This document shows, piece after piece, positions 1 through 62,944 of a DNA stretch of 64,000 bases (within the stretch, counting starts at the first letter, position 1; every line of letters starts with the position of its first letter). The notes beneath the pieces were generated by a model, which searched no databases, was not told where the DNA came from, and saw only the letters and a program-made list of their open reading frames with translations. Made by a program: the position numbers and the translations under genes. Source of the stretch: Cloeon dipterum (lineage: Eukaryota > Arthropoda > Insecta > Ephemeroptera > Baetidae); NCBI RefSeq assembly GCF_949628265.1, contig NC_088786.1, positions 33,129,681 to 33,193,680 on the forward strand, read 5' to 3'.

Positions 1-878
1 ATAAACACACCAAATTTAAATGTGCTAATTATATATTTAGCCACACGGTGCTCGGCATTCGACAGATAAGAAATCAAAACAAAGACATGTGCTCCAACCT
101 TTTGATCAATTATTTATTTTTCAAGGTCAATGCTGATTACTCATCGTCGCCTCTCACGTTATGCAATAGCTATGAAGATATCTATGCTCTCGGGTGAATA
201 GTCATGGTGCACACTCGTTCCTTCTGTTTTGAATTTTTTGTTTTCAATAATTTAATGTTACTAAAATTATTTCTTCCTAATATTACATTAATAATTTATT
301 TATTTATTTGGCTCGTTATGAAAAATCTTGAAGAAATATAGTTTATAATATTGAAATAAATTAAAAATTACAAAATTTAGCTGGGAAAAAAATTATGATG
401 GATGAGCTCTGATTTAACATGAAAATTATTGGTTGACGAATTTGACTATATTGATATATTTTTCAAGTGGGGGCCGGCTTGCGGCTGCAAGTGCGGCGGC
501 AGCCGCTTTTATGTCGGTAATGATCGAATAACGCGAGGTCGATAAATGGTGCCCCGCTCTGCCGAGTGCGGTGATTGTCCAGCAGTGCGTCTGAATCGGC
601 CCAAAAATAACACGGTGCCCGGCTTGCAGCGGCCACCGCCAGAGGCCGCCACGCTCCGATCGTCCGAGAAAACCGGTAGCCGTGAAAAAACCGGCCCTCA
701 AACCCCTCCCTCGCGTGAGCCACACGTCAGCAGCGAACGGTTAACCGGTGGTTCACGGAGCAGAAAAACCGGTTGCGTCCGGCCAGTGTTCGGCACCGGC
801 TGTAAAAATAACAATCATGGTGTGTCTGGTGCTGGTGGTCGGAACGGTGCCCATCTGAAGAAGGAGAGGCTCTCGAGA
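1..878. other. Upstream region of jagunal
   Basis: The first 400 bases are AT-rich with no coding signal. From about 460 to 878 the sequence becomes GC-richer, which fits a promoter and 5' untranslated region of the jagunal gene starting at 879. Open frames on both strands here (for example 463-723 minus) have no recognisable domains and lie in the GC-rich patch, so I read them as chance. No TATA box could be assigned. Confidence 0.4.
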
Positions 879-2855
879 ATGGCGTCCCGCGGAGGCCCTA
901 TGGTGGCCGGCACTGACGGCTCCGACTTTGCGCACAGACAACGCGTCGCCGCGCACTACCAGATCAGCTCAGTCAACAAAAACAGGCTCAAATACTGCAT
1001 CTTTTTCCACTATGTGCTCTTCTTTGTGATGCTGGCTAAGCTGTCGGCCGACATTCTCGACCGCCTGGACATCTTCATCCTCGAGATCGAGGAGCTGCAC
1101 GTGCCCAAGGTGCCAATCGATGCTTCCTTTAGTGACCCCTCTCGGTGACCTCTTAACCTTTCAGCCGCTCTGGTGGGAGTACATATGGTGCGTGTCGTTG
1201 GCACTGTCCTTCTGGGGGCTGGCCGCCTCCCGCCGCAACCAGGTGGCCACCATGCAGCGCTACATGATCGGCATCGGCCTATTCGGGATTCTGCCTGTGT
1301 TGTACGCGGCCGCCTACTACTTTTCCGAGGCCTGGACCTACATAACCACGGGAGACAAAGACAAACTATTTGTGTGGCAGGTACGAAAGTCTATATTAAA
1401 ATAATCTTCGCTGACAAAATCCTAAAAAAAACGTATAGGTATATTAATTATATAGATTGTACACATTGGCGGAGATAACAGCGATTTCATTTTTTAACAC
1501 TTGATTTTTTTCACGTTGGATGTTTAATTTTCAAACTTTAAGTGAGCTATGAAACTAAAGAAGATGAAAATTGGATAATATTTTGAAGTCGGTATTCGTT
1601 TAATTATGTTGATATTAAATCAATTTATTTTGACAAGACAAATTGGCTGACGTGTAATATTTAACTCACTGGAAAATATGTTTTTTTTTTAAGTTGGGCC
1701 TCGAAACCCATTATTTGTTTGTCAAGATATTTAATCATATCGCTAATCTTCAGAGCTGTCTTATAATATCAAAGCTGTTTTTCTTGAGTTCAAAATTAAA
1801 ATCGCTTTGAATTTAAAGATGCACCACTTCAAAATCAAGAAAGCGCTCAGTTTTTGAATATTTGTAGTTATTTTGCAACGTGCAGTCGTTTAAAAAATAA
1901 AAGAGTCCAGAACAAAATTTAATTGATAAATCTTGACTTGAAGATCTTCACTTTCGAAACTGCAGAAAAATTTCACATAGATTGCTCTAAAAAATACCGC
2001 TAGAATATTCAATATCCTAATAAAACTTTGTAAAACTACACAACACAAAGTTTTAATATATTAACTAAAGTTAATAAAATAATCAATATGAGCATGAGCT
2101 GTAAATATTGTCTTCTTCACATAATATACAAGAAAATTGCTGCTTCGACTTAATGGTCAATACGTGGAATCCCAAATCCTTATTCAGGGTGAAATCAGTA
2201 TTAAGTAGGACCTCATGAGTAAAGTGATTTCAGCCAATTTTCCGCGGCACTATTGATCTGTTTTGGTGATCTTTTGCTGCATGTTGCAATGAAAAGGGCA
2301 ATCTTTTCGCTTCCCGCACCAAGATCTTTCATTTGACACGCTAGAATTTTGTAAAGCCGCTGGAAAGGTACAAAAACCAGCAAGTGGCGAGTCGGCGCAG
2401 GTGCGCCTCCCAGTCCGTTGAGCTAACTGAGCAATAAAGGAAATTAAATTAAATTTCGAATCACTACATTAACCACCTATTGCCATCTTTAAATACGCTA
2501 TGTGCTAATTTCAAGACGTGTCTGAATTAAATTCCTCAAAATTTAAAGGTTCATGATGTTTGCCTTGATGAAAAAATTTTCCCACAGGCTGGGATCATGC
2601 AACCAATCGCTTTTATTCATAAAAAGAGAAATTGAATCCTCTACTTATATTTTAGGTTATGCTATGATAGCGACTTATTTTTCCATTATTTGGTTTTACT
2701 GATGATCAATAATTTATTTGTTCCAGGATTACCCGTACGCGATCCTGTGGTACGCCTTTCTCTTGCCTGCCTTCCAGGTGCACCTGTTCTCTCTATTGTT
2801 TGCCTACAAGCTGATATCGGCCTGGAAGCCTCGAGGATCGAAAAAAGAGCAGTGA
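879..2855 (+). CDS. jagn: Jagunal, ER membrane protein
   Basis: Three exons, 879-1109, 1165-1380 and 2727-2855, encode 191 residues. All junctions are GT-AG and phase 0 (AAG/gtgcca, cag/CCGCTC; CAG/gtacga, cag/GATTAC). The start MASRGGPMVAGTDGSDF is the highly conserved Jagunal N terminus, and length and exon content match the family. Four hydrophobic segments are visible: near residues 33-53, 83-99, 108-130 and 154-180. The chain ends KKEQ, a classic dilysine KKxx signal for retrieval to the ER. Jagunal proteins are known to be needed for ER organisation and vesicle traffic during oogenesis in Drosophila and for neutrophil function in mammals (JAGN1). The first intron is only 55 nt; the second is 1.35 kb. 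Identity is close to certain. Confidence 0.96.
1381..2726. other. Second intron of jagunal
   Basis: AT-rich intron with no coding signal. It carries one copy of the window's dispersed short repeat near 2270-2430 (listed separately). Confidence 0.75.
2270..2430 (+). repeat. Dispersed short repeat, copy 1
   Basis: Inside the jagunal intron. It shares the core AAAGCCGCTGGAAAGG followed by AAAAACCAGCAAGTGGCGAG with copies near 61.7, 56.6, 20.5, 13.1 and (reverse) 7.9 kb. The upstream part, with the CTTTTCGCTTCC and GCACCAAGAT blocks, is also shared with the 56.6 and 61.7 kb copies. The left half of the longer copies is missing, so this one looks truncated. No Pol III A and B boxes could be assigned with confidence. 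Confidence 0.7.
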
Positions 2856-6572: not shown

Positions 6573-9190
<2,618 letters not shown>

Positions 9191-17864: not shown

Positions 17865-18295
17865 TTTCCGAATTCTACGTTGCCAAAATGAGCACAAGAG
17901 TGGCTGGCTTAGGAGAGACAGAAAACGCCTTCAGCAAGAGGTTTGAAGTCACAACAGAGGTATAGGGATTTATTAATCTCCTGTTATAAATATAAAAGTT
18001 TCACGTGGCTTTTGCAGTGGTGCACAGCAATAAACAATATCGAGTACATTCGCCAAGCAATCCATCCATTCGTCCTGGAACTGGGTCTAGAAAACATTCT
18101 CAACTCCATGGCTGACTGAGTTCCACTCTGAATCGAACGCGACTCAGTGCAGGAAAACACTTTAGCTGGTCATCGATGAAGCCATTGACATCGTCAGCAA
18201 CAAAATCATTGATCTGATAGAAACAATGGCAGAAAAGAGTGCTATTCTTCACTATTTTCATGTTTTGGCTCAATTTAATTTTACTCCACAGATTT
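17865..18295 (+). pseudogene. Inverted, broken copy of BAIAP3 exons
   Basis: Nearly identical, in reverse orientation, to 27340-27770 of the BAIAP3 gene. It covers most of exon 27778-27671, the intron that follows, exon 27612-27397 and part of the next intron. It is not functional: a 4-nt insertion near 18113 shifts the frame (GCTGACTGAG against GCTGAG), a CAG codon is TAG near 18158, and the donor after GCAGAAAAG near 18237 is deleted. Few other differences are visible, so the duplication seems recent. Because an intron is retained, it arose by DNA-level duplication and not by retroposition. It abuts the mucin-like inverted repeat. Confidence 0.88.
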
Positions 18296-18448: not shown

Positions 18449-18958
18449 TTATGGTACGGACGCTGTCGTGGTCGTGATAGTGGAGTCAGCAATCGGCATA
18501 GTGGACTCGGTAGTTGTGGTAGTTGAGTCGGTAGTCGTGGTAGTGGAGTCGGTAGTCGGGATAGTGGAGGTGGTAGTCGCACCTGTGGTGGTTGTGGTGC
18601 CGGCTTTAGTGGTAGTTGTCGGTTTAGGACTCTTCGTCTTCTCCGTTTTTTCAGTTTTTTCCGTCTTTTTGGAAGTGGCAGGCCTAGTAGTTTTTGGTTT
18701 TTCTGTCTTCTTCGTAGTACTGGGCTTTGTAATTTCGGGTTTTTCTGTTTTCTTGGAAGTAGAAGGCTTTGGTTTTTCCGTTTTCTCCGGTTTCTCTGTC
18801 TTCTTCGAAGTCGCGGGCCTGATGGACGTAGTTTTTTCTGTTTTCTTGGAGGCTGCTGCTTTAGTCGACGTTGTTTTCACCTTGGTTATGTCCTTGCTGT
18901 CACAGAGGCACAAGCTGGAGAGCAGCACGAAAGCGAACAGGGGCAGGAGCAGACGCAT
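18449..18958 (-). CDS. Secreted Lys/Thr-rich mucin-like protein 1, 169 aa
   Basis: Single exon. MRLLLPLFAFVLLSSLCLC is a textbook signal peptide (cleavage likely after residue 19). The mature chain has no cysteine. It holds five or six imperfect SKKTEK-type repeats interspersed with Pro/Thr (about residues 35-115), then a Thr/Ser-rich tail with DSTTTTT and ESTMPIADST blocks that add acidic residues. Such Thr/Pro-rich tails are typical substrates for mucin-type O-glycosylation. A TATA box lies about 60 bp upstream. The protein resembles insect salivary, glue or peritrophic mucins only in composition; no family was recognised. The head-to-head paralogue at 21872 has an identical signal peptide. 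The Val-rich frame on the opposite strand is a by-product. Confidence 0.85.
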   Translation of the reverse strand: MRLLLPLFAFVLLSSLCLCDSKDITKVKTTSTKAAASKKTEKTTSIRPATSKKTEKPEKTEKPKPSTSKKTEKPEITKPSTTKKTEKPKTTRPATSKKTEKTEKTEKTKSPKPTTTTKAGTTTTTGATTTSTIPTTDSTTTTTDSTTTTTESTMPIADSTITTTTASVP

Positions 18959-19017
18959 GGTTATGATCAGGTTGTGGTACTGCTGAATAAGATAGACAAC
19001 TGGATTCGCGCACGGTC

Positions 19018-19025
19018 CTTTTATA
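19018..19025 (-). promoter_or_regulatory. TATA box of mucin-like gene 1
   Basis: TATAAAAG on the minus strand, about 60 bp before the ATG at 18958. It lies in sequence nearly identical to the TATA region of the paralogue at 21.8 kb. Confidence 0.75.
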
Positions 19026-19979
19026 CTAAAATGCTCGCGGGGAAAGAGCTCAGACGGAAGTGAGCAACATATATATCATTCTGAAATTGTCAAGTTGCAA
19101 TTTGCGGTGAAGTTTCGAAAGGTAATTCATAAATTATAATATGTGGCGAGTGTCGGACGACACACGTTATAGTCATAAATTAAAATATTAGACATCTACC
19201 AACTGCCATGTGTTGTGAATAAACTGCATTATTTAAATATGTTCTTCTTACTAAACAGTTTATCCTGCAAGGAATGGGATTTATATCATTTAATTTGATA
19301 TACTGTAATTAAAATATATTTTGAGCACGAAAATTTTAATAATTACGCAAAAGAAATAATTATAATGCTCTTTTTCCTTAAAAAATCTTAAGATAAAAAT
19401 TATTTGATGGAGAACGGCGCTCGACAAACTATACAAGAAAGGGGCAAGCGCGTCCTTGCCCGTGCGCCTTTTTGTCTCTTTGTGTGGCTTTTGCATTATT
19501 GAGTCTAGTCAGGCTGGTCGGCCCGAGTTCAAGAACTCCTGTTTTTGCCAGGGGCGAGAAGTGGGCCAAGGACAAAATGTTATTTACGCGTTGCCTGATC
19601 TAGACATCTAATCGAAACACGCCCAAGAGCATGCAAAACAACACTTCCTTGCCGTTCATTTCCACCTGCTTAAACTGCCTTCCTTTGATTGGTGTATATA
19701 GCGAGCTATGTGTTTGTTAGAATTTCGAATAGACCAGCGAGGCCGATTTCTGCTTAAATGCAATTCATGAAATTGTTTAAAAATCAAGCTAATTAAGAAG
19801 GAAAACAATTTTGCGTATGTTGTCCATTTTTGGGAGCGACTTAGTTAAGCACTCATTGAAAATTAAACAAGTGGCTAAAATTTAGCATGGAGCGATTGAA
19901 TGTAGGTCACTCTTTACTTGATTGCTATCAACTGACCACCAGAAAAGGCCGTTAATCAATTTTCGCGCGCTCAGGAGAC

Positions 19980-20710: not shown

Positions 20711-21804
20711 GCACACGTATCTAATTTAAACTCAGCTTCCTGCGCCGTGTCAAGTGATTTATGCTAGGCGAAGTTTACTGTCATACTGTCATAAAACTTG
20801 AAGTGCACATTTCGCATTTCACTATCTACCAGGGTAATCAGTAATTGCAAGTGCCGCCATTCAAATCGGAAATGTATGTCAACGTCGAAGGCTGGGAACA
20901 AAAATTGTTGCACAATCAACTAGATGTCTGCGTGGCTTTAAAAAGCGCAACTGCTGGTCGTCGTTTGGTTAAAATGCTCATATTTAAATAAATACAAAGC
21001 CCTTTGCTCCTAAAAATATTATCAATATATTAAGCACACACTTACAAGAAAAATTGGTGTTTGGTCATTTTTACATCGAGTATTTTCCCCTGTACGATTG
21101 AATTATGATTTGAGATTTGATATTCTAACACACAGCTCGCTATACACCAATAAAAGAAAGGCAGTTTAAGCAGGTGGAAATGAACGGCAAGGAAGTGTTG
21201 TTTTGCATGCTCTTGGGCGTGTTTCGATTAGATGTCTAGATCAGGCAACGCGTAAATAACATTTTGGCCTCGGCCCACTTCTCAACCCTACCTGGCAAAA
21301 ACAGGAGTTCTTGAACTCGGGCCGACCAGCCTGACAAAGACTCAATAATGCAAAAGCCACACAAAGAGACAAAGAGGCGCACGGGCAAGGACGCGCTTTA
21401 GCGCCGTTCTCCACCAAATCTTTTTTATCTTGAATGTTTTTAAGAAAGGGAGCAATAATACAATTAACTCTTTTATCAATTTTTTACATGCAATTATAAA
21501 ATTTCGTGCACAAAAGTATATTTCAATTACTATATCAAATTAAATGATATAAATCCCATTCCTTGCAGGATAAACTGTTTAGTAAGAAGAACATATTTAA
21601 ATAATGCAGTTTATTCACAACACATGGCAGTTGGTAGATGTCTAATATTTTAATTTATGACTATAACGTGTGTCGTCCGAGACTCACCACATATTATAAT
21701 TTATGAATTACCTTTCAAAACTTCACCGCAAATTGCAACTTGACAATTTCAGAGTGATATACGTTGCTCACTTCCGTCTGAGCTCTTTCCCGCGAGCATT
21801 TTAG

Positions 21805-21812
21805 TATAAAAG
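21805..21812 (+). promoter_or_regulatory. TATA box of mucin-like gene 2
   Basis: TATAAAAG about 60 bp before the ATG. A TTCAGCAG initiator-like sequence lies roughly 30-35 bp downstream of it. Confidence 0.78.
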
Positions 21813-21871
21813 GACCGTGCGCGAATCCTGCTGTCTATCTTATTCAGCAGTACCACAACCTGGTCATAACC

Positions 21872-22333
21872 ATGCGTCTGCTCCTGCCCCTGTTCGCTTT
21901 CGTGCTGCTCTCCAGCTTGTGCCTCTGTGACAGCAAGGACACAGCAACCTCCATCAAGCCTGCGACTTCGAAGAAGACAGAGAAAACGGAAAAACCAACT
22001 ACTTCAAAGCCTTCTACTTCGAAGAAGACTGAAAAAACTGAAAAACCTACTTCTTCAAAGCCTTCTACTTCAAAGAAAACTGAAAAAACTACTACTCTAA
22101 AGCCTTCTACTTCGAAGAAGACTGAAAAACCAACTACTCCAAAGCCTTCTACTACGAAGAAGACAGAAAAACCAACAACTACTAGGCCTGCCACTTCCAA
22201 AAAGACGGAAAAAACGGAGAAAACAACTACCACTAAAGCCAGCACCACGACCACCACAGGTAAGACCACCACCACCACCCCGACTACTACTACCACCACC
22301 CCGACTACGACCACCACTGTCGCACCGCCCTGA
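21872..22333 (+). CDS. Secreted Lys/Thr-rich mucin-like protein 2, 153 aa
   Basis: Single exon. The signal peptide is identical to gene 1 (residues 1-19). The mature protein has about six imperfect repeats around PSTSKKTEKPTT (about residues 28-115) and ends in an almost pure Thr tail with Pro and Lys, TTTTPTTTT-like, finishing VAPP. It has no cysteine and, unlike gene 1, almost no acidic residues in the tail. An AATAAA polyadenylation signal lies about 35 bp after the stop. It is transcribed divergently from gene 1 out of the inverted repeat. Function is not recognised; secretion and heavy O-glycosylation are inferred from composition. Confidence 0.85.
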   Translation: MRLLLPLFAFVLLSSLCLCDSKDTATSIKPATSKKTEKTEKPTTSKPSTSKKTEKTEKPTSSKPSTSKKTEKTTTLKPSTSKKTEKPTTPKPSTTKKTEKPTTTRPATSKKTEKTEKTTTTKASTTTTTGKTTTTTPTTTTTTPTTTTTVAPP

Positions 22334-24464: not shown

Positions 24465-24645
24465 GGTGGCGGCAGCAGGAACGATTGTTGATTTTATGAA
24501 TTCCATTTCTAAATAAAATTGCAGGCACGATTCATCATTTCAAAATAATTTCCAAGTATATTTTTGACGTCAATGCTGTATCCTTCAGATTTGATACCTG
24601 ATGCGCTGTATCTGTTGCAATTTCCGTTTGCTTTGCTCGAAACAG

Positions 24646-24653
24646 TATAAAAG
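24646..24653 (+). promoter_or_regulatory. TATA box of mucin-like gene 3
   Basis: TATAAAAG about 50-60 bp upstream of the start codon, the same arrangement as in genes 1 and 2. Confidence 0.75.
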
Positions 24654-24703
24654 AGCCATGTGAACGATTCTGCTCCCTTCTCATCACTCTCAGCGGTTTG
24701 ATC

Positions 24704-25105
24704 ATGAACATGCGGCTGCTACTGCCTCTGTTCGCTGTAGTTCTGCTCTCCAGCCTGTGCCATTGTGATAATGACAGTAATGATGCCAACGATAGTGTCG
24801 AGGATGACAAAAAATCAACCAATAAGTATAAAAGTACACCTTCCAAAGCGACAACCCAGGCAAAACCGACAAAAGTAACCGTGGATGACAAGAAAGGAAA
24901 GGAAACTAAGACTGAAAAAACCAAAAAGCCTACCAGCCCTAAAACAACCAAGTCTACAACTTTGAAGCCTACCAAGACGACGTCCACGAAAAAACCAGTT
25001 ACTACAAAAAAGAATGGAAAAACGGAGAAGACCAAGACTCCAATTCCAACCACCAGAACTACCACAACCACCACCACCACTACCCCAACTACGTCCACAC
25101 CATAA
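24704..25105 (+). CDS. Secreted Lys/Thr-rich mucin-like protein 3
   Basis: Single exon. The first ATG is at 24704 (MNMRLLLPLFAVVLL); the ATG at 24710 aligns with the start of the two paralogues. The signal peptide is nearly the same as genes 1 and 2. The mature N terminus differs: an acidic Asn/Asp/Ser segment (DNDSNDANDSVEDD) precedes Lys/Thr/Pro-rich repeats such as KPTSPKTTKSTTLKPTKTT, then a Thr tail. It has no cysteine after the signal. The 3' flank (GAGCTTTGCAATCTGAACA and AATTCTCCTCC) matches the flanks of the other two genes, so the three derive from one duplicated unit. It is convergent with BAIAP3. Confidence 0.82.
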   Translation: MNMRLLLPLFAVVLLSSLCHCDNDSNDANDSVEDDKKSTNKYKSTPSKATTQAKPTKVTVDDKKGKETKTEKTKKPTSPKTTKSTTLKPTKTTSTKKPVTTKKNGKTEKTKTPIPTTRTTTTTTTTTPTTSTP

Positions 25106-25664: not shown

Positions 25665-28600
25665 TTAGTGGGATTCCCTAGTTCTCTCCTTCTTGACGAA
25701 ATCCCTGGCCATCTTGTCTCCTTGCCTGTGCTCGAGCGCCATAAAAGCTTCGCCTTCTGCAACATAAGTAAAAAAACGTAATTAAAAATTTACTTTGAAA
25801 AGGGAATTGGCACGGAAGCTCACCAAGGGCGGACGAAGGTCTGGTTAGTGGCAGGTGGAACTGCGCTACGTTTTGAAGGTCTGAGTCGAAGCGCACCTCG
25901 GAGAAGGGGAAAAAAGCTTCGCCAACCAGCTCGTTGCTGCTTAGCATCTCGTAGTCTTTGACCACAAAGTGAATGAGTGCGTTTTCAGTTCGCTGCAAGT
26001 CCTCAGAAATAGGCCTAAAAGCATCAAGGTAAATACTGGGCTGGTTTTGTTTTGGGTCTTGACTTACATGTTGAAAATCTCGTCGTATAGTGGGAACAAA
26101 TTCTTCTTGTGCACCTTGGTCTTACACTTGGTAACACTACCAGCAAACTTGTCCTCGGGGAGAAGGTGCACTTTCACGTAGGAATCACAGTAGCCTGGGT
26201 AAAATTGCACGTTGCTCATAAAAGCATTCAGAGTGTAATGAAGTGCTCACCATTTGAATCAGTGGGCCGCAGATTTCTGCCATTGAGGATTTCTATTTTG
26301 AGATATTGATCTTGGAACATGCACTTGACGGTGAGCAGCCCGCAGCACTGCTCGGAGTTCTGGGACGGAGTGTGCGTTAAAAGCTTCTGCTCCTCATACC
26401 TAAAATTTAAATAAAAACCATTTTTTAACCAGAAAAAGAAAAATACACACTCAGGCACTTAGTGAAATATAAAATTAACAAATGGCTAAAACTCAGCGCT
26501 CCTCTCAAAATTTCACTATCATCTGTCCATCCTGAATTAATTTTCCGCGCAGAGCATAGCAATTAGTTGTTGTTTTTATTTTTTATTCTGAAACTCTGCT
26601 CAGCACATCCGCGTTTAAATTTCACATTTATTTTAATTTTGTAGGAGATTTTTTTAGGAGGAGGAACAGATTAAAATGAAGATTCAAAATTAATATATTA
26701 CTTTGATAGAAGTAAACACGCCTTTGCTTATCACACTAAGAGCTTAATTTTAAGCTTAACTTAATAATACAAGTTTTTATATTCATTTTAGACAAAAGCA
26801 ACTATTCATTTCACGATGCAGTAGCTCAGTTAAAAATATCACATTTTGAAATTGATGCTGCACATCTTTTTAATTAAAATTACCTGTTGAGAAAATATTG
26901 CTGGATCAGTTCAGAAGTGTCAAGGCTGTGCATCTTCAGGCGCGCCTTGGTGATAGCCAACAGGTCGGAATTTTCACAAAGGGATGCAATTTCAGTCTCA
27001 TCGTACTTGAAGAATCCTTCCATGATCCCCAGGGCACCAGAGAGGTTGGCGAAAAACGAGGGCGGCCGTCTCTTCTGCAATTGAAAGCCTGCTATAGTTT
27101 TGTGAAAAAACAAAAATCTCCAGTCCCAACCTCAATACTGCTGTCAATCAGCTCCTGCAGCTGTTTGGTCAGCTTGTCCCACACAATTGCCAAGGTCCTC
27201 TTGAAGTTTTCCTCGCTCAGGTGGCTATGCAAGGTCTCAAAGTTCTTCTGCAGGTAGTCCATCAGCCTGTCCAAACTCATGTTGTTCTGGTGTAGAAGCT
27301 CTGCCGCCTCAACCAGAAACCTGTGCAGCGATGGAATCATCTGGAATAACAATTAAATTGAGCCAAAACATGAAAATAGTGAAGAATCGCACTTACCTTT
27401 TCGGCCATTATTTCTATCAGATCAATGATTTTGTTGCTGACGGTGTCAATGGCTTCATCAATGACCAGCTGAAGTGTTTTCCTGCATTGAGTCGCGTTTG
27501 ATTCAGAGTGGAACTCAGCCATGGAGTTGAGAATGTTTTCTAGACCCAGTTCCAGGACGAATGGATGGATTGCTTGGCGAATGTACTCGATATTGTTTAT
27601 TGCTGTGCACCACTGCAAAAGCCACGTGAAACTTTTATATTTATAACAGGAGATTAGTAGATCCCTATACCTCTGTTGTGACTTCAAACTTCTTGCTGAA
27701 GGCGTTTTCTGTCTCTCCTAAGCCAGCTACTCTTGTGCTCATTTTGGCAGCGTAGAATTCGGAGCAACGACATATGTCCTGTTTACGAAGATTTGAAATT
27801 ACCTGATCGAAAATTATAACTTCACACTCACGTCGATAATCTTTGCTACAAAAGTGTAGGAACTTTCAACGTCAGGCCAGTTGAGTTGTTTCCAAAATAC
27901 TTTGATCTGCAGAGCGATTTACATTAGTTCAAGTTCCATTCCTGTAAAGGTTAAATTTCTCACTTGATAATAAATTGAAAGGGTGTCAACGGCAGAAGAG
28001 CTGAATTTAACGTGCTCATCAATCGGCTGCAGATTTCCCAGCTCAACGGCCTTCTCGATCCTTTTGAGAGCTTTGTACAGGGCAATGTCCAGCCACTGCG
28101 CAACCCCTTTGACAAACCATGTATGGAATTTGCTGCATTTGTAGTCCTCATTCAAGTACCGCCCTTTTCCCATCCTACAGACATTACGAAATCATTATTA
28201 TCTCTTCCACTTAAGTATATTAAATGACACCGCATAATCACGTGAAAATCGATACATTTACTCACTTTCTCTTGTTAAATGGCACTCTTCTGCAATTTTA
28301 CATTTAACTTTGAACGCCTTGTACTTTTTCAATTTGCATGCAATCGAGTAGCAAATTAAAGATTGATATTAACTGAACTTACACAACGAATCTTTGCAAG
28401 GCGATGTAGAGCTCAAACAGGGAGGTGCCCATTGTGATGTCATCATTGTCGTAAAGGCCTTGTGTGGGATCTTCGTTGAACCTAAGGGGCTTCAGGTTCT
28501 TGCAGGTCTGTTGCACGACGGGCTCCACCAGCCCAAATACCCTCTCATCATAAACTTCATAGATAACTTTGGTGTACTCAAACTGGGCCACTCTGTCAAA

Positions 28601-31600
28601 AGGCAGAAGTTATTATCAAAACGTATCAGAGTTTATTAAAAATCCATACTCTGAGTAAATTTTATCGTGGTACTCAATTGCCCTGAGCAAGTCGGACTGC
28701 AGCAAGGAGAGGATTTTGATGTAGTAGGAGAGTTGGATATCCTGGTCGTCAGACTTCTTGTCGTCATCATTGTTGATCTCCATAATGTGCTCGTACCTGT
28801 GAGGATGAAAGGTAATTTTCCGCTACAAAAATTGCTTTAAAGACTTACCAGTCTTTAGCGCCTTGTCGAACAGCGTCCTGGATGCTCTGATGGATGTCGC
28901 AGTGCGGTCCGTTTGACGCCGAGAGCCAAGCAAACATGTTTGCAGGAAACAGTTCAAAGTCCTTTGGAGGCGTCAGGGTCGTAAGTTGAACCAAAATGCT
29001 GCAAAATATTGACATTGTTTGTTGGTAAATCATTATCTGGAAATATTAATAAATAAAGCTTTGGTACAAAGCTGATTTAAAAACTGCACAAATTTAGTGT
29101 GCCACAAAAAATTTGATCTTGTACCAAAGCAAGCAAAACAACAAATCAATGACATAAATCAGGCCATCTCAGTTACCTAAGTAGCGCCTCCAGTTGGGTC
29201 AGTGTGTCCTTGTCCGTGGGCATCAGCTTCCTGATCTTCCTGATGCACGTCAAGCAGGTAGGCATCAGTTTGCGCGCCGCCTCCCAGAAGACTCTAGCCT
29301 GCAATTCAAAATTAAGTACTCAACATTTGGAAAAATTCCACGTTTTACTTCTTCATCGCTGAGGACGCCATCCTTGACGGGCCTGATGAGCTTCTCCAGG
29401 GTCCTGCCGAGCAGCTGGAAGTTGAGCGCGTGATCGATGTGCACGGCGCAGAACTCGGCCCACCTGGCCAGCTGGACGTGGTTCTCGTCGAGGCCGGTCT
29501 GAATGCGGTGCTGGTTGAGCACGCTGTCGGCCAGCTCGAGGAAGCGGCCGCTCCACTTGTACGGCAGCGGCTGCGTCACCTCCAGGTCGTGTTTCAGCAG
29601 CACCCGCACCAGCTGGCGATGCTCCTGCGTGGCCACCTGCACGTTCTTCAAGGCGCCCAGGGCCAGCCGCAGGTGCACCTGGCCCTGCGACTTGGACTTG
29701 CCCTTCTTGGTCAGGCTGCGCCACAACTTCACGCCCCCTGAGACCACTTCCTGAAATTTTTGGTTGGAAATGTGAAGGAAGGAAATTTTATTATCAAAGT
29801 ATTATTCGCGCACCTTGAGGGGAATCTCGACTGTTCCGACGAGTTCATTGTCGTGTTTGCCCGTCGATGCCGTTATTGCTACCTCTTTGAACAATTTTTT
29901 AAATCCTTTGACGCCCTTGACGTCGGAGAATTTGCCAAGTTTCTCCCTGACCGTTTCCGCTGGGTCGAAATCCCTGAAAATTTATTTTAAATTAATTGCC
30001 TAAAATATTAAAATGCAACTTACCAAACTTCAATAACAAGCACGTCATTATTTGGATCTTCAACAGGTCTGAAATTTTACCAGGCGATTTTATTTACCGA
30101 AAATTCACTTCAAACCTTCAACTCACAGTGAGAAATGTTCCTCCCAGGTTGGCTTGAGCGTCTTCGTCTTGACGGAGGTGTTGTACCTTTGGGTGGGTCC
30201 GTTGGACAGGTAGAGTGTGCAGAAAGGGTCGCTCAGCCCGTTGCAGTCCTTGGCATGCAGCTCGTGCGCCTCGATCACTTCCACGTTGAGCAGAATGTCT
30301 GGTGCCTATCGCAGATTACGCAAAATTGTAGTTTCAATGTGTGTTTCTCATCTAACACACGGACCACCGACTTTTTCAAACGCTAAACAGACTTTCTTGC
30401 GCGCGCGATTAACTCTCTTGACTACAAAATGTGAAAAAACGCACGCACACACCCGACTTGACTTCAAAGTATGAGAACAGAGCCCTTTAGCCGGCGTTAT
30501 GCGCGCGCGAATGTTTTCAATTTGTGTATTTATGGGTCACTTGCTCGGCTGCAAAGAACCAGCAATTTAGCTCAATCAAAACAAGCGCGCAATACTCTTA
30601 CGTAAATGCCCGCTGACATATTCTGCGATGTCAATTGTTTATGTTCAAAGAACAAATTAATACACAAAGCTCAACAAATCGTTTATTTCACGTAATTTAA
30701 GTTTAATTGAAGTTAATAAAACAGTTATGAGTCAAATTCATTGAAATTGCTTTGCAAATCAGCTTAAAATTAATCAAATTTTGTTTCTGGTAGGTCCCAA
30801 ATTTGGATAAATATTATAATTTGAAAAGGAACCTCAACTTTAAAAGGATTTATATATTTTACCTCCTTTGCTCTGGCTTCTTCAAGCAGCATATCATGTT
30901 TTTCATCGTCGAATTTAAATGCCGTTTTCAGGAAGCTCAAAATTTCGTCTTGATTTTCTTTGGCACCAAATCCGATTACATGAACGGTCTCGTATAGAAC
31001 TTCTGCATACAACTGCTCTACCTAGAAAGACAAGACAAATAAAAATTATTATTTAATTTCATGCGCTATATTTTTTAATCCAAGTTTATTCCTGTTGTAA
31101 TTTGTAAAGAGCATATTATTTTAGCATTTCTGACAAACAGTATTTTGCCTCCTTTTTCCCTATTCGCTTAGCAAAAAATTCAACCCTTGAAAAAGCAAGT
31201 TATGCGAAAATGAAAGGAAGTTGTCTTTTTGCAAAATAAATATTATCTGTTTGATGTCCATCGCGATGGAATCGAAATTCAAGAACTTCCTGACTCTTCT
31301 GAAAGAAGGTGTTTTATTTATTTTTTCAGGTGGGTGCATGCGGCCTGCTTTGCGTCACCCTCGGCGGTCATCATCACCAGCGATCGACACACACACGGCC
31401 GGCCAAAAATACATTGGCGCTAAAAAGTTGGCAAAGGTACGCGCGGCGTGTCTTTCGAATAGAACAAAAAAATCTGCCGCCGGCCGCAGCACAATCGATT
31501 TACTTTTTCAGCCGCTAGGCCCAATGAGCACAATAAAAATAAACCGAAGTTTGTTTACTTCCAAATTTTACAGCTGCCGATCGATAAAATTTGGACATTG

Positions 31601-34600
31601 CGAAATTTTAAAAGGCTCGCCGGTCATTCAATTTACAACTTGATACGCACGCAGCAGTAAAAGTCGAATTTTAAATTAGCCAGTGCACGCACGCTCGCTT
31701 CGTTTGAATACATGCATGCGGGATGAGCGCGTTTTTAAACTCTCTCATATTATTATGATTATGTGTGCTGCATAGCAGCAGACGTGCTAATCGGGCACAT
31801 CCTCTAGTTGCGTGATGATGGCTGACCTTTCAATTCTCATTGTTGTCCGAGCGATTTTTGCTATCAAAGTTGAAAGTTACGGTTCAATAACGTTAATGAT
31901 TTAATTGATTTAAAAGAATTTAAACACCATTGAGGCAATGTAGAAGAATTTTATGATTAAGTTGGGTTGGTTTTTTAAATTCATTAATTTTCACAACATA
32001 TCTGGTAATAAATTTAAAGTGGATTAAAAAGAAGATGCATTCTCTTCCTATTTCCAACAGCTGAATCTAAAATTTTATGCATGTTTTAACTGACTGCTGA
32101 CATCTTGTGACACAAGATTACGAAATAACATCGTTTTGACGCTTTGCCGCTAATTTAGTTGATTGGATGATTTAATTTTAATCGTAACTGTTAATTTTGC
32201 AAGCTTTCTGTCATTTCTTTTTCATGTCTGCGTTTGTGTGTATATCTTTTAAGAAAGTAGATTGAAATGAATATTAAAAAAATCATTTAGAACTATATTT
32301 TACTAGATTTCGTTATTAGTTTTAAAATAATTTTTGAAATTAAAATCCGAGATTCAATAAATCGCTATTTTAGAGCTCTTTTGATGAAATGCAGACACCA
32401 CAAAATATTTGGAAAAATAAAATCAACCAACACAGCTAGAAAAAAAGGATTTTATATTCTTTCTGAAAATAAAAATTCTAGTATTTCTTTCTCTATAAAC
32501 CATAAGTAATTTGTTCTCAGGAACAACATGCAAATTGATGTCGTTTTTCCGGCCTAAGAAACTTTCAAAATTAAAATCCCGAATTTTCACATAACTTTCC
32601 TCACGAGAAATGATTGAAAGTACCGTCATGTTGCGCAGGTAGGCCTGCGCCTGGAGTTGCATGTGCTCTTTCTTGACCCCCCTGAAGGTGCCGTTGATGG
32701 TGCCCTGCCTGAGGACGGCGGAGCGGCGTCGACGGGCGGTCGGCGGCTCCGTGGAGCGCCTCGCCGCCGCCCCGTCGATGCCGGAGCCTGGGGCGGCAGC
32801 CACCCTATTCTCAAAGTGCAGCAGGTCGCAGGTTCGCTGCGTCCAGCTCTTGAGGGCCAACATGCATTTTTCAGCGCGACACCAGACTGACCGCGCGCGC
32901 CGAGCGAGCGGTCCAGCGTTCGGCACACTCGCCGCCGCGCGCTCCCCCTCCGACCCGACATGTCTATTTATTCCCGCAGCTCCCCTTGCAGCGCACGCCG
33001 CGTCCTCGTCACCGCCGATTAATTAAAAACCCCTTAATTAATCCTTTGTCCGTCGCTGCTTCAGCTGCAGTTCGCCATGTGGCACCCTAATTGCTTGAAG
33101 GCACCGCACTCACTTGGACCATTTCGCAAGCGGAGCTCATTTGTCTCCAGCCATCAATCCACCTGTGGCACACTTTGCCCTTCCTTATTGCTCCCTTTTC
33201 AATGCAAATTATTATCACGAGGAAAGTGGAAATTTGCTACTTTACGAGGCTCTAATTTACTAAGGAACCAATTCATTAAGATTTAGGACCACTAGCGCAG
33301 TGTACAACGGAATTTATGTCGAGGAACACATCAATTTACATGTCATTGTCCTTGCAGAACTTTAAAAAATTTAAATGAAACTACGTAGCAGCGATATCAT
33401 TTGTGACAGATGTATTATTTATAGTGCATTTAAACTAGTACGTCAGTTTTGAAGAAAATTTGATAAGTAAATTGGTCTAACCATCATTTTCCTCGTGTAA
33501 AGAAGCCATTTCTTATTAATACTGAATCTTGTTTTTTGTCTAAAAATTATAAATACATAGCTGTTATATGCTCTTACGACTAAATGGTTACACCACAGCA
33601 TGTCTATTTATTAAAAAGGCTGATTTACTGGTTCTGGCGAACCATCATTAAAAAAACTGCCTTTGTTAGAGAAAATGGTTCCGAAGCTCTGTATCTTTTA
33701 AACAAGCCTGAGAGCGAAAAACTAGAGAGTCAATACATTTTCTATAGAGTTAAAAATATTTTAACTCTTTTAATATTTATTTTATTACTTGTTTATTCTT
33801 TATTTTTCCCTTTTTAGGCTCTGTTAGGCTCATAATATGTATGCTACACAGCTTTGTGTAATTTTAAACAAGCTAGAAAAAAATTAAAATAAAATTATCC
33901 CAAGACGTTCATGAAATAAAATAGCTATTTGCCCTATTTGCAATACATTGGGCTCATGATTACCATAGATTTAACGAAAGGTGAAAAATATTAACCAGAA
34001 TTTGAATATATAAACAATCTATATCTATTCTTTTTGTCGCATAGAGTACGGTCAGATGAAAATTGGCATCGAATTTCGATTTTGAAACATTCCTTATGAT
34101 AAATCCCTTAAGGAATTTACTTCTTTGTGGCTCCATAGTCAACTTAAATGGCCGCGGACCGAAAAATTTCAACTGGTTATCCTAGTTTACTTCGTTGAAA
34201 AGTACTTAAATTCAATATAAGTAAACAGTATTTCAATAAAGCATGAAAGCGGACCTTCCTTGTCAATGAGAAGAAAGCCCTGTCCAGAAAAAGGATAATT
34301 TTTTGGTTTAAAAGCTAGTAAAATTAAAAGTATATTATATAGCTTTTAGTTTATTTAATGAACTCAGAATAACTAACAGATAATTACAGCTTGGAAAGAG
34401 TAAAAATTCACATTTAGAGTCAAATTTAAGCAAAATGTCTTCTTCATTCCTTTTAAATCCTGCTTTACGCGATGTGTTAATTTTCGTAATTTTTGCGTGG
34501 CCCGTTATTAACAAATTATCCCAAAACCACTTAAAACTACTTACTTAAATCTACTTTTATGAATGCCGAGTTCTGTTTAACAATCTTACTGCTTTGAGTT

Positions 34601-51711: not shown

Positions 51712-54700
51712 TCAGTTGAGGGTGCCCGTCGATTCGTTTGTGGCTATCGTGTCCAGGTCGGTCACCGTGTCGCAAGTTTTGCTCTTTTTGATTCTCACTA
51801 AATCTGTTAACAAAATGCCCGCTTGTAAAAACTAAAATTTTTATGCCATTAGTTTTGAACTGACCTTGAGGAACGTCAACCAAGTCGATGAGGGGCAGTT
51901 CCATTTGTGGCACATCGGCAAACGCTTTGTTGGCGTAGTCTCGGTTAATTTTGTCAAATCTAACCAGCGTCTCGCCGATGACCATGTTGTGACCAAAGCG
52001 GTTGTAGTCCTTGACCACCAAGTGCACTAGCGCGTTTTCCATATTCTCGTTGCCATCAGTCATCGCTCTGTTGAAAAAACACATCATTTTTTGCATTATG
52101 TATTAACGGAATAAAATATTTAGGTCTCACATTTCAAAATATTCTTCAAATGTTGCGCAGTTCTTCAAACTTCGTTTCTGAATTTTGGTTTTGAGCTTTT
52201 TGTTGCAGTCCGGGAAGTTTTGCTTGGGAATCAAGTCGATGCGCACGTACGGGCTGCAATCTCCTAAATAATTTGGTCAAATTAAAACGCAAAACTCTAT
52301 TTGGATTTTTACCCTCTTTGCTTCTTGTTCTGAGATTTCTCACGTTCAGGATCTCAATTTTCAGGCTTTTTTCCTGGAACTGCAGGAGAACGTTGATTTG
52401 CCCTCTCTTGTCGTAGTCATCCACCTTTCCCTGCACCACCAGCCTGAAATTAGGTTATATGAATTATTCAGACTTAAAATATAAATTCGGTGATAAACAC
52501 ACCTTTCCAAGTAGAATTTGTGAACAGGGTCGATTGAATTTTTAGACAAGGTTTCCAAGATAGTCTTGGTCGCTTCAAGGAGTTCCCCGTTTTTGAACGC
52601 TAGAGATTCTCTGCTGAATGCACTTTCAAAGAACTCGAGCGACTTTTTCAAGTTCTTGTAAAAGCCTGGAGGTTTGTCCTCCTGGAATAATTAACAAATA
52701 ATGGTGAATCGTTGAAATTAAATCAGAGTTTTTCTTTCCACTCACCATGTGGGTGGCGTCCACGATTTGCTTGATTAGCTCAACGATGCTCTCCCAGATG
52801 AAGGTGATGGCGCGGTGGTAGTTGTGTTTGCTCAGTTGGCGTTTCAGCACGCCCAGGTGGATGTTGATCGGGCTGATCGGACTCATGAATCTGGTCGGCG
52901 ACAGGCTCTGGTTCTCGCGCACCACCTTGAGGATCTTCTCGCTCACCTCCTGCACGATTTCCATCATTTTCTGGTCGGCGTTCTCGGCCGCGTCCACCAC
53001 TCTGCTCAGCACCTTCAGCCCCTTGTGGCACTCTGGAATGTGTGACCTGATCTTCGTAAGGGTCATGAACAGGGCCTCCACGTTTAGCTTTTTCATCAGC
53101 GGCTCGAGGCCCTCGACCAAGATGTGCTCGATGTTGTTGATGGCCGTGCACAGCTGGATTTCGTAGTCTCCAGGCAGATCGGTGACTTTGACAACTTTCT
53201 GGCGGATCTGGTCAGCGTAGTGCTTTGTGCAGGCAGTGATGCTCTGGAATTTTGTATTTAATGATCATGTTTTTTTAATGTTTAAATAGTTTACTTTGAC
53301 TAGTTTAGCCATCAGCGGAAACTCGTCCTTTTCGTCAGGCCATTTTAGAGCTCGCAGATCTTTTTCCAGCTGAAAATTTTAAGATTTTACAATATTATTA
53401 AAATAAATTTAATTCAATCAAACCATATCGAAGATGCCGAGAACGTCGACCGCGGAGCTGCTGAATTTGACGTCGTCCAGTGGCTCGAGCTGGTCCAACT
53501 CGACTGCTGCTTTGATCATGTTCATCGCTTTCAGCAGAGTAATGTCAAGCCATTGAGAAACGCCTCGAGCAAACCAGTTGTGGAAATCGCTGCATTTGAC
53601 CTTTTCCCCGTGAAAGTAAGTGTCCTCAAAACTGAAAATGTGAGTCTCACGATAATTGTACAATTTTTTGTAGCATAAAAATAGGTCGATAGCACAAAGC
53701 AGGCAGCAGTCTGCACTCAAATGTCACACCGGTTGCATAAGCCGTGAAAAGAAAGGCGCTAAACGTACTCATTGAATTCTTTGAGGGTGAAGTAGAGGCA
53801 GACGAGGTCTGTTGATTTGTTTTGCGGGTCGGGCTCTTTGTCTTTAGGGTCGTATTTCTTGAGGCTGTTGCAAATACTCAAGACCAACGGCCGCACCACT
53901 TGATTCACCTGCAAACAAAAACACACTTGAGAAAATAAACAAAGAGGCACTCTCAGCTCGCTCTCACCTTATTGTCAAACACCTGCAGCACTACTTTGGA
54001 ATACTGGATGTCTAAGCATCTGTGAAAATTGTTTTATTAAAAGCTGGATAATTTTTTTTATTTTAATTTCGAAGCTGCGCACTTGAATTTTTCGTCATGG
54101 AAGGAGGAGGAGAGAACGCATTCCTTCAGCCCCGGGATTTCCTTGTTGTAGCAAGAGAGCAGAGCTTTCGGGTTCGCGATCTCCTGCACTTTTATTTTCC
54201 TCTTGGCCACTCCCCCGTCTTTATATTTGCTTAGGATAGCCTGTCAATAAATACGGTTTATTTTTATGTTGTGAGTATATTGAAATATATACCCAACACT
54301 GAGGATTGTCTTCTATTTCCTCTTCTCCGAATTCTATCTTTGCAAACTTTTCTTCAATCCTAAAAAGATTAAAGTTGAGCAAAAATACGAGTTCGTTAAA
54401 GCATAAATATGATTTAAAAAACATGAAATACCATTCTCTGGCGCTGTGTTTGATTGCATCCAACACTTTTCTTTTCAATTTTGAGTTGTGTCCGTGATCC
54501 GTTTTGAGCCACGTGTACTTGTAAGACGGGAAAATGTCTATGTCCTCTGGGGGTTTGATCTCGATCAAGATAGCCAAAATCCTGATCGAAGAAAAAGCAA
54601 TTTAGCACAAAAAAACGAGTACATTGTGGAGCGACTTGCCTCAACATAGAACTCAGTTGCGCCTCCATTGCGTCGCCATAGCTGATGCTCATCTTGAATA

Positions 54701-57487
54701 GGAACCTGATGAACTTCAGGCAGGTTGGAAGCAAATTTCGATTGGCATCCCAAAACACTTTTGCCTAAAAATGTATCAGAAAACCGAAATCAATAAGAAA
54801 AACCTAGCCATTTGAAAGCTTAGCATTAATTTTCCTCTCGGTTTCATTCATATCATATTTTATTCTGATAATTTTGCCCACGTTTTAGAAGGAAGCAATT
54901 TTTCACCATTTAATTAATGCATTTGAACTGATATAAATAATAGATCTTACCTCGTGATCGGTAAAGGTTCGAGGCTCACTGTTCTGGCTCGTGGTCAGCT
55001 TCTTTAGCATCGTCTCGAGCACGTGGAAATTGAAGGGTGTCTCTTCGTGCTGGTCGCAGAAGCCGGCCCACCTGGCCAACTGTACGTGCGACTCGTCGAG
55101 GCTGGCGTGTGCGCGGTGCTGCGTGAGCACTTGTTCGGCCGTGTCCGACAGCCGGCCGTCCCACGTGAAAGGTGCCTTGGCGTGATTATCCAGTTCGCGC
55201 CGCACCAGCACTCGGACCAGTCGCCGGTGCTCCTTGCAGCCAACCTGCACGTCGCGCGACGTCCCCAGCGACAGCAGAACGTGCACCTCACCCCGTGCCT
55301 TCTTCTGCTCCTTCTTCAGCGGAATCCACTCGTCCATCGCGCCAGACGGAATGTCCTGAAATTATTATTTTTTTTTTGCAATTGTTTACTCCAATGTTTA
55401 AGAAATATATTCAGTATTTTTATGGGGTTTTAAATATTTAATTTAAATGCATTATTTTCATTGAAATGATGATGATGCTGAAAAATTAAATATTCAAGAG
55501 GAAGCGCTCAGGGAAATGTATTTAAATACAGAAAATCATAATCTTAATTAAAATAATTTAATAATTTCAGTTGAACTACCTTGATAAGAATCTCCGCAAT
55601 TCCTGAACACTTCCTATCTTCATTTTTGTTGTTCAGAACGAGGCCTTTGGCCATATTCTTCAACGTTCCGATTTTATCCTTAACTGTTTTGTTGGAAGAT
55701 GGTGATTGATTCGGAGCTTCCTCCACATATTTCCTGAAATTGACACAAAATTAAGTTAATGACGCTTTTATGATCTCGCCAATTTACCAAATCTCCACAA
55801 TCAACGCGTCGTTTTCCTTGTCAGAAATTGGCCTGTGAATGACAACTATTAAACTGCTAATCTTAAAAGGGAAGCGAGCTATTACAGTGACCCCTTCTCA
55901 TTCCAAACGGGTATCTTTTTGTCGTGTTGAACCTCGCTTTCAGCCTTGTTGTCTGGCTGATTTTTCAAGTAGTAGACAGCGCTCGTTCCGCTCGTCTCGC
56001 TCGACTTCAAGTCTCGCACTTCGATGATCTCCAGGTTCAGTTTCACGTCGGGCTTCTGAAATTCAATGTTTTATTTTTATTTGGCTAGGTTATTAATTTT
56101 ATTTATCACATCTTTGATTTTGGCCTCGTTTTTCTTTTCTTCGTGTTTCTTATCGTCAATGCGGAAAGCGGTTTTGAGAAAGTCGAAAATTTGGCCCTGG
56201 TTCGCATCACTCACGTCGTTCCCCAGGGGGTGGTGCGTTTGGTACAACAACTCACAGTACAGCTGCTCCTCCTGAAACAAAATCGATATGTACTCGCCGT
56301 GCTTAGCACCAAAAAGCCCCAAGTGGAGCACTTTCGTCGTATTTTTAACATAAGTAGACGCAGTTTGTAAGTGAAGTAAAATTGTAAAATATTCTTAAAA
56401 AATATCCTAAATCTCATCTTGGGTAAAAATAAATCAAAAATAATTATTATTTCAAAAATAAATGATCACCTATTTTATTTTCCAATTAAATCGAACCCCA
56501 AATTCTTTAAAAATACAATAGAGATATGGGTAAAATAATTTTTAGGATTTTTAGATCCTCTGCTCAGCACATCCCGTGGACTCACAGGGTCCCAAAAACA
56601 CTGCAGAGCGGATAACATGGGGCCCGAGTGGCCGCAGAGGGGCTTAGGCCCAATGTGCCCATCTTTTCGCTTCCTCGTAACGAAGTCTTTGATTGAAACG
56701 CCAGACATTTGTCCTTAAAGCCGCTAGAAAGGCCCGAAAACCAGAAAGTGCTGGTGAGTCGGCGCCGGTTAGTCTATTTGAGCATTTCGCGAGTCGCCTA
56801 ATTTACCACATTTTTTCATCTTTTGTATTGAAAGCCAGGAACATATCCCAGAAATGCTCAAATACCTTCCATTGCTTTGACACTCCTGAGAATGCCTTAA
56901 CAATGCAAGTCAACGGGATGTTTTTGTGTGATTTTTTTTTAATTTATAGTCCAGTTAAAAGTCGTAGTGTACCGATTTGAACTGGTGGTAAATTCTAATA
57001 AAGCATCAAAAGTTCTTAATTCATCGATAAACCATATTATTTTCAGCGATGAAATAAAAATCTTCTACAGTGACGTGATATATTTTTTTTTAAATTTTAA
57101 AGTTCTCTGCACTGACCGTGAACTCGTTGATGGTTAAGCTGTGACTCTCAGCGTTGCTCTTGCCGTCAGCGCCGTCCTCGGCAGCCGCCTTGTCGCAGTT
57201 AACCACCGGCTCGGACCTGATGAGACCGGCCAGCACGTCCATCCCTTCTTTGCCGAGCTCAGACATGCTGCGAAAGAATTAAAAGTCTAGGTCAAGCATG
57301 GGCTCTAGAAGCGAATTCGGTGCTATTTTTACATAATCGACTCCTGCCCTTGATGTGGCGTCTCGACGGGCGGCAGCGGCAGCTCGCTGTCCGTCCCATT
57401 CACGGCTGCCGGCTGCTCATCGTCTTCGAGGCCTCCGTTCAGCACCCTTTCACCCGCGGACAACATCTCGTCCATGTTCAGCTCCAT
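51712..57487 (-). CDS. BAIAP3-like paralogue lacking C2 calcium ligands (gene B), 1148 aa
   Basis: Twenty-one exons in transcription order: 57487-57333, 57267-57117, 56271-56110, 56055-55886, 55832-55788, 55733-55580, 55355-54951, 54764-54640, 54581-54432, 54359-54293, 54240-54083, 54019-53968, 53908-53769, 53631-53424, 53369-53295, 53243-52746, 52681-52503, 52443-52313, 52263-52131, 52067-51865 and 51797-51712. They sum to 3447 nt, all in phase. Shared with gene A: EEQLYCELLYQ, CTAINNIEHIL, HVQLARWAGFCDQHEE, DITLLKAMNMIKAAVEL. The start follows an acceptor (ctttcag/CAATGG), so an untranslated or short coding exon lies upstream. The intron after 54640 has a GC donor (GAG/gcaagt). Most acidic calcium-loop positions of C2A and C2B are lost. 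A role in vesicle priming without calcium binding is inferred. It may correspond to one member of the Drosophila unc-13-4A/4B pair. Confidence 0.92.
56565..56785 (+). repeat. Dispersed short repeat, copy 5
   Basis: Near full-length: CTCTGCTCAGCACATCCCGT at left, GGGTCCCAAAAACAC, GGATAACATGGGG, CTTTTCGCTTCC, GATTGAAACGCCAGACATTT, AAAGCCGCTAGAAAGG, then a degenerate CCAGAAAGTGCTGGTGAGTC. It lies in the intron between gene B exons 57117 and 56271. Confidence 0.78.
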
Positions 57488-61419: not shown

Positions 61420-62944
61420 CCCTCGCCGGCTCTCTCGCAGCCCCCAGCAGCGACCCGATTTGATCTGCTCCCCGCGCTACTGCTACTACACACGCGCGCA
61501 CGCACGCACGCCGCTCCAGACGCGTCCTGCCGGCCGGCCGGCCGGATGAGAGCAGGGGCCACCCTAGGCCTCGCGCGCCGCGGCTCCCCTTCTCCACACC
61601 TCCGTTCGCTAATAGGGATGTGAAAAATAGCCGAAATTCAATCGTACGCCTCTCTGCACTCGTTGCAATTCATATATGGGGGTTTCTTCAAGTGGAAGTA
61701 CATCCAATTGAGTTTTTTTTTAACCTCTATGCTCAGCACATTCCGTGGGCTGTGAGCTCGCCGGGTCCCAATTAAACAGCCGAGCGGAAAACATGGGGTC
61801 CTGGAGGAGCTTGTACCTAATGTGGAAATCTTGTCGCCTCTCCGCACCAAGGTCTTTTATTGAAACGCCAGAAATTTGTCCATAAAGCCGCTGGAAAGGA
61901 GCAAAAACCAGCAAGTGGCGAGTCACGCCAGTGCGCCTCTCAGCCCGAATAGTTATTTGAGCATTTCAAGACTCTGAAAAATGTTTAAGAAAGGGAAACT
62001 TTTCTGGTAGAGACACACTAAATGAGAAAAAATTGTTTTACTTTAAAAATGAAGTATATTTTTATAAATTAAAAACTGCTAAAAACCCTAGTAGTTCCCA
62101 TTAATCTCCTCTCCAGTTAGATTTATACTTTTGGTTTGTGAAAAAAATCTAAAAAATAATGCGCGCTTTACTATTTTAATTTTTATGAAAATGATTCTAT
62201 TAATTGCAATAATTATACGATTTAAAAATGAAATTGAGGAAATTGAATTGCTGTGCACGACACTGGTGTAAAACTGGCGTGGCCATGGTGCGTGCAAGGG
62301 GGATCTGTTTGCGTTCGCCGTCCGCATTAACAGTTCACCAGACAGAGACACTCCAGCAGTGAGCTTTAATCGAAGCCGTTTTGCTTGTTGATAAAAGGGC
62401 TACAAACATGTGGGCCGACTGAGAGCAGTAAAAGTACTATTTTTAGCTTGAGAGGAACTGTCGACTGCGATTAAAAGATCTGCAACTTTAAAATCTTGTT
62501 TATTATGTTCCTCAAAGAAATCCTTTCAATTCAAAGAAAGCAAAGTAATTCCAAACTGTCTCAATTTACTCTGAGAATTTGTGGCGCATAAATCGATTCC
62601 AATGAAAAAATAGGTGGAGAAAGTAATAACATCATTTTGTTTCCTTGCAAAAAAAGTTTAAATAAAAAAGCGTTTTGAAGCTTAATGCTAAAATCAGATG
62701 ATTATAATAAAAAATGAGAGCAAGCTTTGTACAGGAATGCAGCCTGCTCTTCAGCAAATCAGAGCAGGTTGCCTATACCTTCGCAAAATATTTTTTTAGC
62801 CTTATAATTTATGGCTCTTTTTCAACCATTGACAAAAACTGCTATATTTCAATGTCCAAAATTTATTCCATGCAATTAGCACCAAACAAATTTACTATTG
62901 TAATTGTTGCTCATGTTGAAGTCGTCGAAGCAGGGTTCAAGAAA
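61420..62944. other. GC-rich promoter-like block, repeat copy, then AT-rich spacer
   Basis: 61.42-61.61 kb is very GC- and CpG-rich. A dispersed repeat copy follows at 61725-61975. From 62.0 to 62.94 kb is AT-rich spacer and 3' flank of the odorant-binding protein gene. Confidence 0.55.
61725..61975 (+). repeat. Dispersed short repeat, copy 6
   Basis: Near full-length: TATGCTCAGCACATTCCGTG, GGGTCCCAATTAAACAG, GCGGAAAACATGGGG, TTGTCGCCTCTCCGCACCAA, TTATTGAAACGCCAGAAATT, AAAGCCGCTGGAAAGG and AAAAACCAGCAAGTGGCGAG. It ends in TATTTGAGCATTTC, also present at the end of the 56.6 kb copy, so the right boundary is shared. Confidence 0.8.

Follow-up and report, generated by a model that had tools for sequence, protein, structure and literature searches.

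In a 64,000-nucleotide stretch of the Cloeon dipterum genome (the window), the minus strand carries two genes arranged head to tail. Judged from its sequence, gene B (51712..57487) is a functional paralogue in tandem with gene A (25665..32863), and both belong to the MUN-domain secretion factors of the Munc13-4/BAIAP3 group. The two C2 domains of gene B have lost most of the acidic side chains that would hold calcium, whereas those of gene A retain them all. On balance, we lean towards the view that gene B encodes a Munc13-4-type tethering and SNARE factor whose C2B domain would hold the membrane independently of Ca2+, gene A encoding a Ca2+-triggered factor.

Gene models and coding status

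The exon models of both genes were assembled by hand, guided by splice signals and homology. Gene B comprises 21 exons encoding 1150 aa with a C2-MUN-C2 layout, and the span (51712-57487) given for it in an earlier note equals the distance from the first ATG exon to the stop codon in the rebuilt model. Its two 5' exons (57117-57487, minus strand) have no clear counterpart in gene A, and only an open frame and splice signals support their placement. The model of gene A likewise comprises 21 exons, encodes 1135 aa, and shows the same layout; in the case of its first exon, the open frame and splice signals weigh more than homology. A 498-nt MUN exon in gene B (52746..53243, minus strand) corresponds to three exons in gene A.

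All 20 introns of gene A are GT-AG, and internal stops are absent. Gene B has GT-AG boundaries in 19/20 introns and GC-AG in 1/20; the exception follows the exon at 54640-54764 (minus strand), with the donor AG|GCAAGT. The joined exons of gene B run for 3453 nt without an internal stop (the other two frames contain 63 and 46 stops), and third-codon GC is 0.681, as against 0.316 in its introns; the corresponding values for gene A are 0.670 and 0.331. Given this frame and codon composition, gene B looks like a maintained coding gene. Its classification as a pseudogene was rejected on the basis of frame, codon composition, and the intron phases held in common with gene A.

Duplication and rate of change

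The two proteins match at E 4e-167, with 31% identity across 1075 columns, and a phase-matched intron of gene A was found for 17 of the 20 gene B introns (in 15 cases at an identical column of the alignment, in 2 at most 10 columns away), which bears out the paralogy that had been proposed. Counted from the side of gene A, 18/20 introns are matched (one gene B intron being counted twice), compared with a mean of 2.2 and a maximum of 9 under random placement. Of 798 columns compared, 290 are identical between A and B, 233 between A and UNC13D (Munc13-4), and 186 between B and UNC13D. On these comparisons, A and B are old duplicates that are closer to each other than to Munc13-4; the duplication looks old because identity is only 31% and several introns have been gained or lost.

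The same two features favor a different account of timing, to which we give somewhat less than an even chance, namely that the ligands were lost long ago and the loss is widespread, with gene B orthologous to a gene widely kept among insects or arthropods (e.g., Drosophila unc-13-4A or staccato) and gene A orthologous to the other. Drosophila has more than one gene of the Munc13-4/BAIAP3 group, which points the same way. This alternative concerns when the ligands were lost; it is compatible with Ca2+-independent docking and implies nothing special in this lineage.

Across residues 280-945 of gene A, 212 of the 627 residues aligned with gene B are identical (33.8%). Identity reaches 41/80 in a conserved MUN block (A 620-700) and is 12/80 at the N-terminus (A 1-80). 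Residues 486-583 of gene B (98 residues) stand opposite 466-537 of gene A (72 residues), and there are several further gaps elsewhere; the earlier description of the MUN region and its length as preserved therefore holds only roughly.

With UNC13D as the outgroup, one-sided differences number 107 in B and 60 in A (p 0.0003), in a test that leans towards A since the UNC13D stretches used (9la9 chain residues 82-171, 197-469, and 574-1073) were only those that align to A. Gene B is probably the faster-evolving of the two, and because it seems faster overall, part of its ligand loss may be general relaxation. That the whole gene is under relaxed constraint or in early decay, with a ligand loss that serves no function, strikes us as very unlikely. 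The apparent rate excess and the one intron with GC in place of GT would fit such decay, but the frame is complete over 21 exons, third-codon GC is as strong as in gene A, the MUN blocks are conserved, and AG|GCAAGT is the usual context of GC donors. A truly decayed copy looks different: at 17867-18288 (plus strand) there is an inverted partial copy of gene A, containing parts of two MUN exons with introns and identical to it at 404/426 aligned bases, which, to judge by a frameshifting insertion, an in-frame stop, and the loss of a splice donor, is a recent decayed fragment.

Family placement

Pfam matched gene B to C2 in two stretches (75.2 bits) and to MUN at residues 638-804, the latter a weak and partial match (33.6 bits, cut-off 24.2); gene A matched C2 in two stretches (141.2 bits) and MUN (42.3 bits). 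The order C2, MUN, C2 was found in both proteins, the C2 order being taken from the UNC13D alignment, and neither matched a C1 family at E 0.1, a C1 domain being present in Munc13-1. Among solved structures, the best match of both genes is Munc13-4/UNC13D (9la9_A; E 1.7e-86 for A and 1.5e-42 for B). Gene B is nearer to UNC13D than to Munc13-1 (best 2.3e-4), and Munc13-1 is absent from the best 60 of the 63 matches of gene A at 1e-6. CAPS and BAIAP3 are absent from the solved-structure matches listed for either gene. By domain layout, the lack of C1, and the preference for UNC13D over Munc13-1, both proteins belong to the Munc13-4/BAIAP3 group. Munc13-4 (UNC13D, PDB 9la9) resembles them in its C2A-MUN-C2B layout and in having a similar N-terminal block ahead of C2A.

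Gene B had been called BAIAP3-like, which is too specific, Munc13-4 being the best relative of solved structure for both genes. Staccato (Unc-13-4) and unc-13-4A are insect members of this group. Staccato is called the Munc13-4 homologue in PMC7056964, and BAIAP3 is described as a Munc13-4 paralogue (PMC5496627). The description of Fig. S6 in the latter source has the Ca2+-binding C2 residues of BAIAP3 conserved, and its SNARE interaction is said there to be enhanced by Ca2+; on this description, BAIAP3 is set apart from gene B, which does not keep its ligands.

When the genome was searched with protein B, all 22 matches among the best candidates fell in gene B (17) or gene A (5). The 11 matches of a MUN search are confined to two further loci (C5, 3.43-3.44 Mb; C2, 9.26 Mb), which we would guess to be unc-13 and CAPS. 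That search missed genes A and B themselves, so it does not imply the absence of a further gene of their type. Bacterial and archaeal contigs scanned with the A/B alignment gave 76 pattern matches and no relative, a result that is uninformative on insects.

Calcium ligands

In a C2 domain, Ca2+ is coordinated by five acidic side chains, of which loop 1 supplies two and loop 3 the other three. UNC13D has Asp at 10/10 of these positions in its two C2 domains. Gene A is also acidic at 10/10, with D153, D159, D209, D211, and E251 in C2A and D997, D1003, D1062, E1064, and E1070 in C2B (seven Asp and three Glu). Loop 1 of its C2A, AKDCNGLSDPF, lies at 30127..30305 and holds D153 and D159, and the C2B segment at 26068..26194 holds D1003, the second loop-1 ligand, together with the basic strand KCKTKVHKKNL (both on the minus strand). 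The acidic loops attributed to gene A are thus present, with the refinement that E251, E1064, and E1070 are Glu rather than Asp and are still carboxylates.

The corresponding exons of gene B, all on the minus strand, read differently. Loop 1 of C2A, SSETSGTSAVY (55886..56055), has E176 and A182 at the first two ligand positions; the exon at 55788..55832 runs into loop 3 and ends inside the W228 codon, and the exon at 55580..55733 (WKYVEEA ... EDRKCSG) supplies K229, V231 or S240, and K269. The choice between V231 and S240 for the fourth position is set by the placement of an insertion in B, and neither residue is acidic. C2B starts at 52313..52443, where loop 1, RTRSKEG, has S1006 at its first ligand position; the second, S1012, is encoded at 52131..52263 along with the basic strand KLKTKIQKRSL, and loop 3, KDYNRFGHNM (51865..52067), has D1073, N1075, and M1081. 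The motifs previously quoted for A and B all occur at the expected place in the spliced products.

Gene B is therefore acidic at 2/10 ligand positions (E176 and D1073), and Asp is found at none of those in C2A and at one in C2B. The ligand loss claimed for both of its C2 domains holds for the 8/10 positions that are non-acidic and has to be qualified for the two that remain. Of the C2 residues that A and UNC13D have in common, gene B keeps 1/7 at ligand positions and 45/91 elsewhere (one-sided Fisher p 0.077), so that this test alone is only suggestive of an excess loss specific to ligands; the contrast of 10/10 in A and Munc13-4 with 2/10 in B is the stronger point. The second loop-1 Asp is kept in 8/8 of the best of 59 C2 matches in the genome, a rough control made up of top scorers and hence biased to canonical domains. 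The best candidates of that whole-genome C2 scan (59 matches, E 0.001) include the C2A and C2B exons of gene A and lack the C2 exons of gene B.

Acidic loops supplied by alternative exons of gene B were also considered and ruled out: a tblastn with protein A (E up to 0.001) found no alternative acidic C2 exon in the gene B region, all matches there overlapping exons already in the model. Gene A thus has, and gene B lacks, the full ligand set of a Ca2+-regulated Munc13-4-type protein. Residue by residue, canonical Ca2+ coordination is lost from both C2 domains of gene B, and we infer that canonical binding has gone with it.

Mutants of Munc13-4 indicate what such losses may mean. In the portion of PMC6080937 dealing with them (see also PMC3849599), D127N/D133N in C2A inhibit the Ca2+-dependent SNARE interaction, and D941N/D947N in C2B block Ca2+-stimulated membrane binding. 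On our count, which applies an offset of 28 to the 9la9 chain, the mutated residues are the two loop-1 Asp of each domain, and gene B has E/A and S/S in their place; it should therefore not respond to Ca2+ as Munc13-4 does. One might still regard gene B as a low-affinity Ca2+ sensor that works through displaced acidic residues and E176 of C2A, and the retention of E176 and D1073, together with further acidic residues close to the canonical sites (E1008 and D1010 in C2B loop 1, and E232 and E233 in C2A loop 3), would suit that idea. We consider it unlikely, however, as C2B has Ser at each of its two loop-1 positions and Asn and Met at its fourth and fifth ligand positions, C2A has Ala, Lys, and Lys at three of its five, and exchanging two loop-1 Asp for Asn in one C2 domain is enough to inhibit the Ca2+ response of Munc13-4, according to the same account (PMC6080937).

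Proposed membrane docking without calcium

In the reading that we prefer, the MUN domain of gene B would still tether vesicles and aid SNARE assembly, as extrapolated from work on Munc13-4 and Munc13-1, while its C2B would grip acidic membrane constitutively, without Ca2+, by means of the kept basic strand and basic loops. The basic strands of A and B each carry a net charge of +5. Loops 1 and 3 of C2B together have a net charge of -3 in A and +2 in B, and the whole domain -4 in A and +4 in B, so that in charge the C2B of gene B would resemble a Ca2+-loaded C2 domain. The basic C1-C2B face of Munc13-1 is reported (PMC8648301) to bind membrane without Ca2+ and to matter for priming. The kept basic strand, the charge shift, and this precedent together lead us to infer a Ca2+-independent, membrane-docked factor. 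The C2A of gene B is not basic (net charge -1, compared with -3 in A), which confines the charge argument to C2B; C2A may have a structural role or have lost its role.

A further and rather doubtful reading is that a tandem duplication in this lineage gave rise to a Ca2+ sensor and a constitutively docked twin, in whose C2B positive charge gained by substitution replaces that of Ca2+; gene B would then, just as tentatively, be an always-on natural version of a Ca2+-triggered protein. A division of labor between A and B (subfunctionalization), as had been suggested, would be one hypothesis, with relaxed constraint, neofunctionalization, or an old family-wide split as possible alternatives.

Relation to known calcium-independent C2 domains

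Loss of Ca2+ ligands is frequent among C2 domains, and Ca2+-independent C2 domains are common. Munc13-1 C2A and C2C, the CAPS C2, and several synaptotagmin C2 domains, which belong to the same superfamily as those of gene B, are regarded as Ca2+-independent. In those cases, the blindness affects particular domains or other families, whereas gene B encodes a Munc13-4-type protein in which most ligands are missing from each of the two C2 domains; we see this as a variant of a known theme. Among the best literature matches (titles and abstract openings, with subscription papers mostly outside), no report of Ca2+-ligand loss in an insect Munc13-4/BAIAP3 paralogue was found.

In published descriptions, Munc13-4 acts in fusion in a Ca2+-dependent manner. 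A ligand-poor gene B beside an intact gene A would allow a clean test of what the MUN domain and Ca2+-independent membrane contacts achieve on their own, and the pair would bear on how insects might separate constitutive from triggered release in secretory lysosomes and dense-core vesicles.

Other features in the window

Three related short ORFs (18452-19075, minus strand; 21782-22330, plus; and 24602-25102, plus) share a signal-like MRLLLPLFA start and Thr/Lys-rich repeats and are mucin-like, with Pfam matches under the cut-off. One adjoins the gene A fragment at 17867-18288 and another adjoins gene A, and the flanking DNA also matches, which suggests that the fragment and the ORFs stem from a shared duplication. 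Similar translated stretches occur at 56478-56802 and 61641-61965 (both minus strand), one of them within an intron of gene B, and may represent copies of a small repeat. The window also contains a Jagunal-like gene (546-1145, plus strand; Pfam E 1.6e-35) and a Vps4_C match (6576-6899, minus strand; Pfam E 1.5e-8), which we would guess to mark the end of an AAA ATPase gene of the katanin/Vps4 type.
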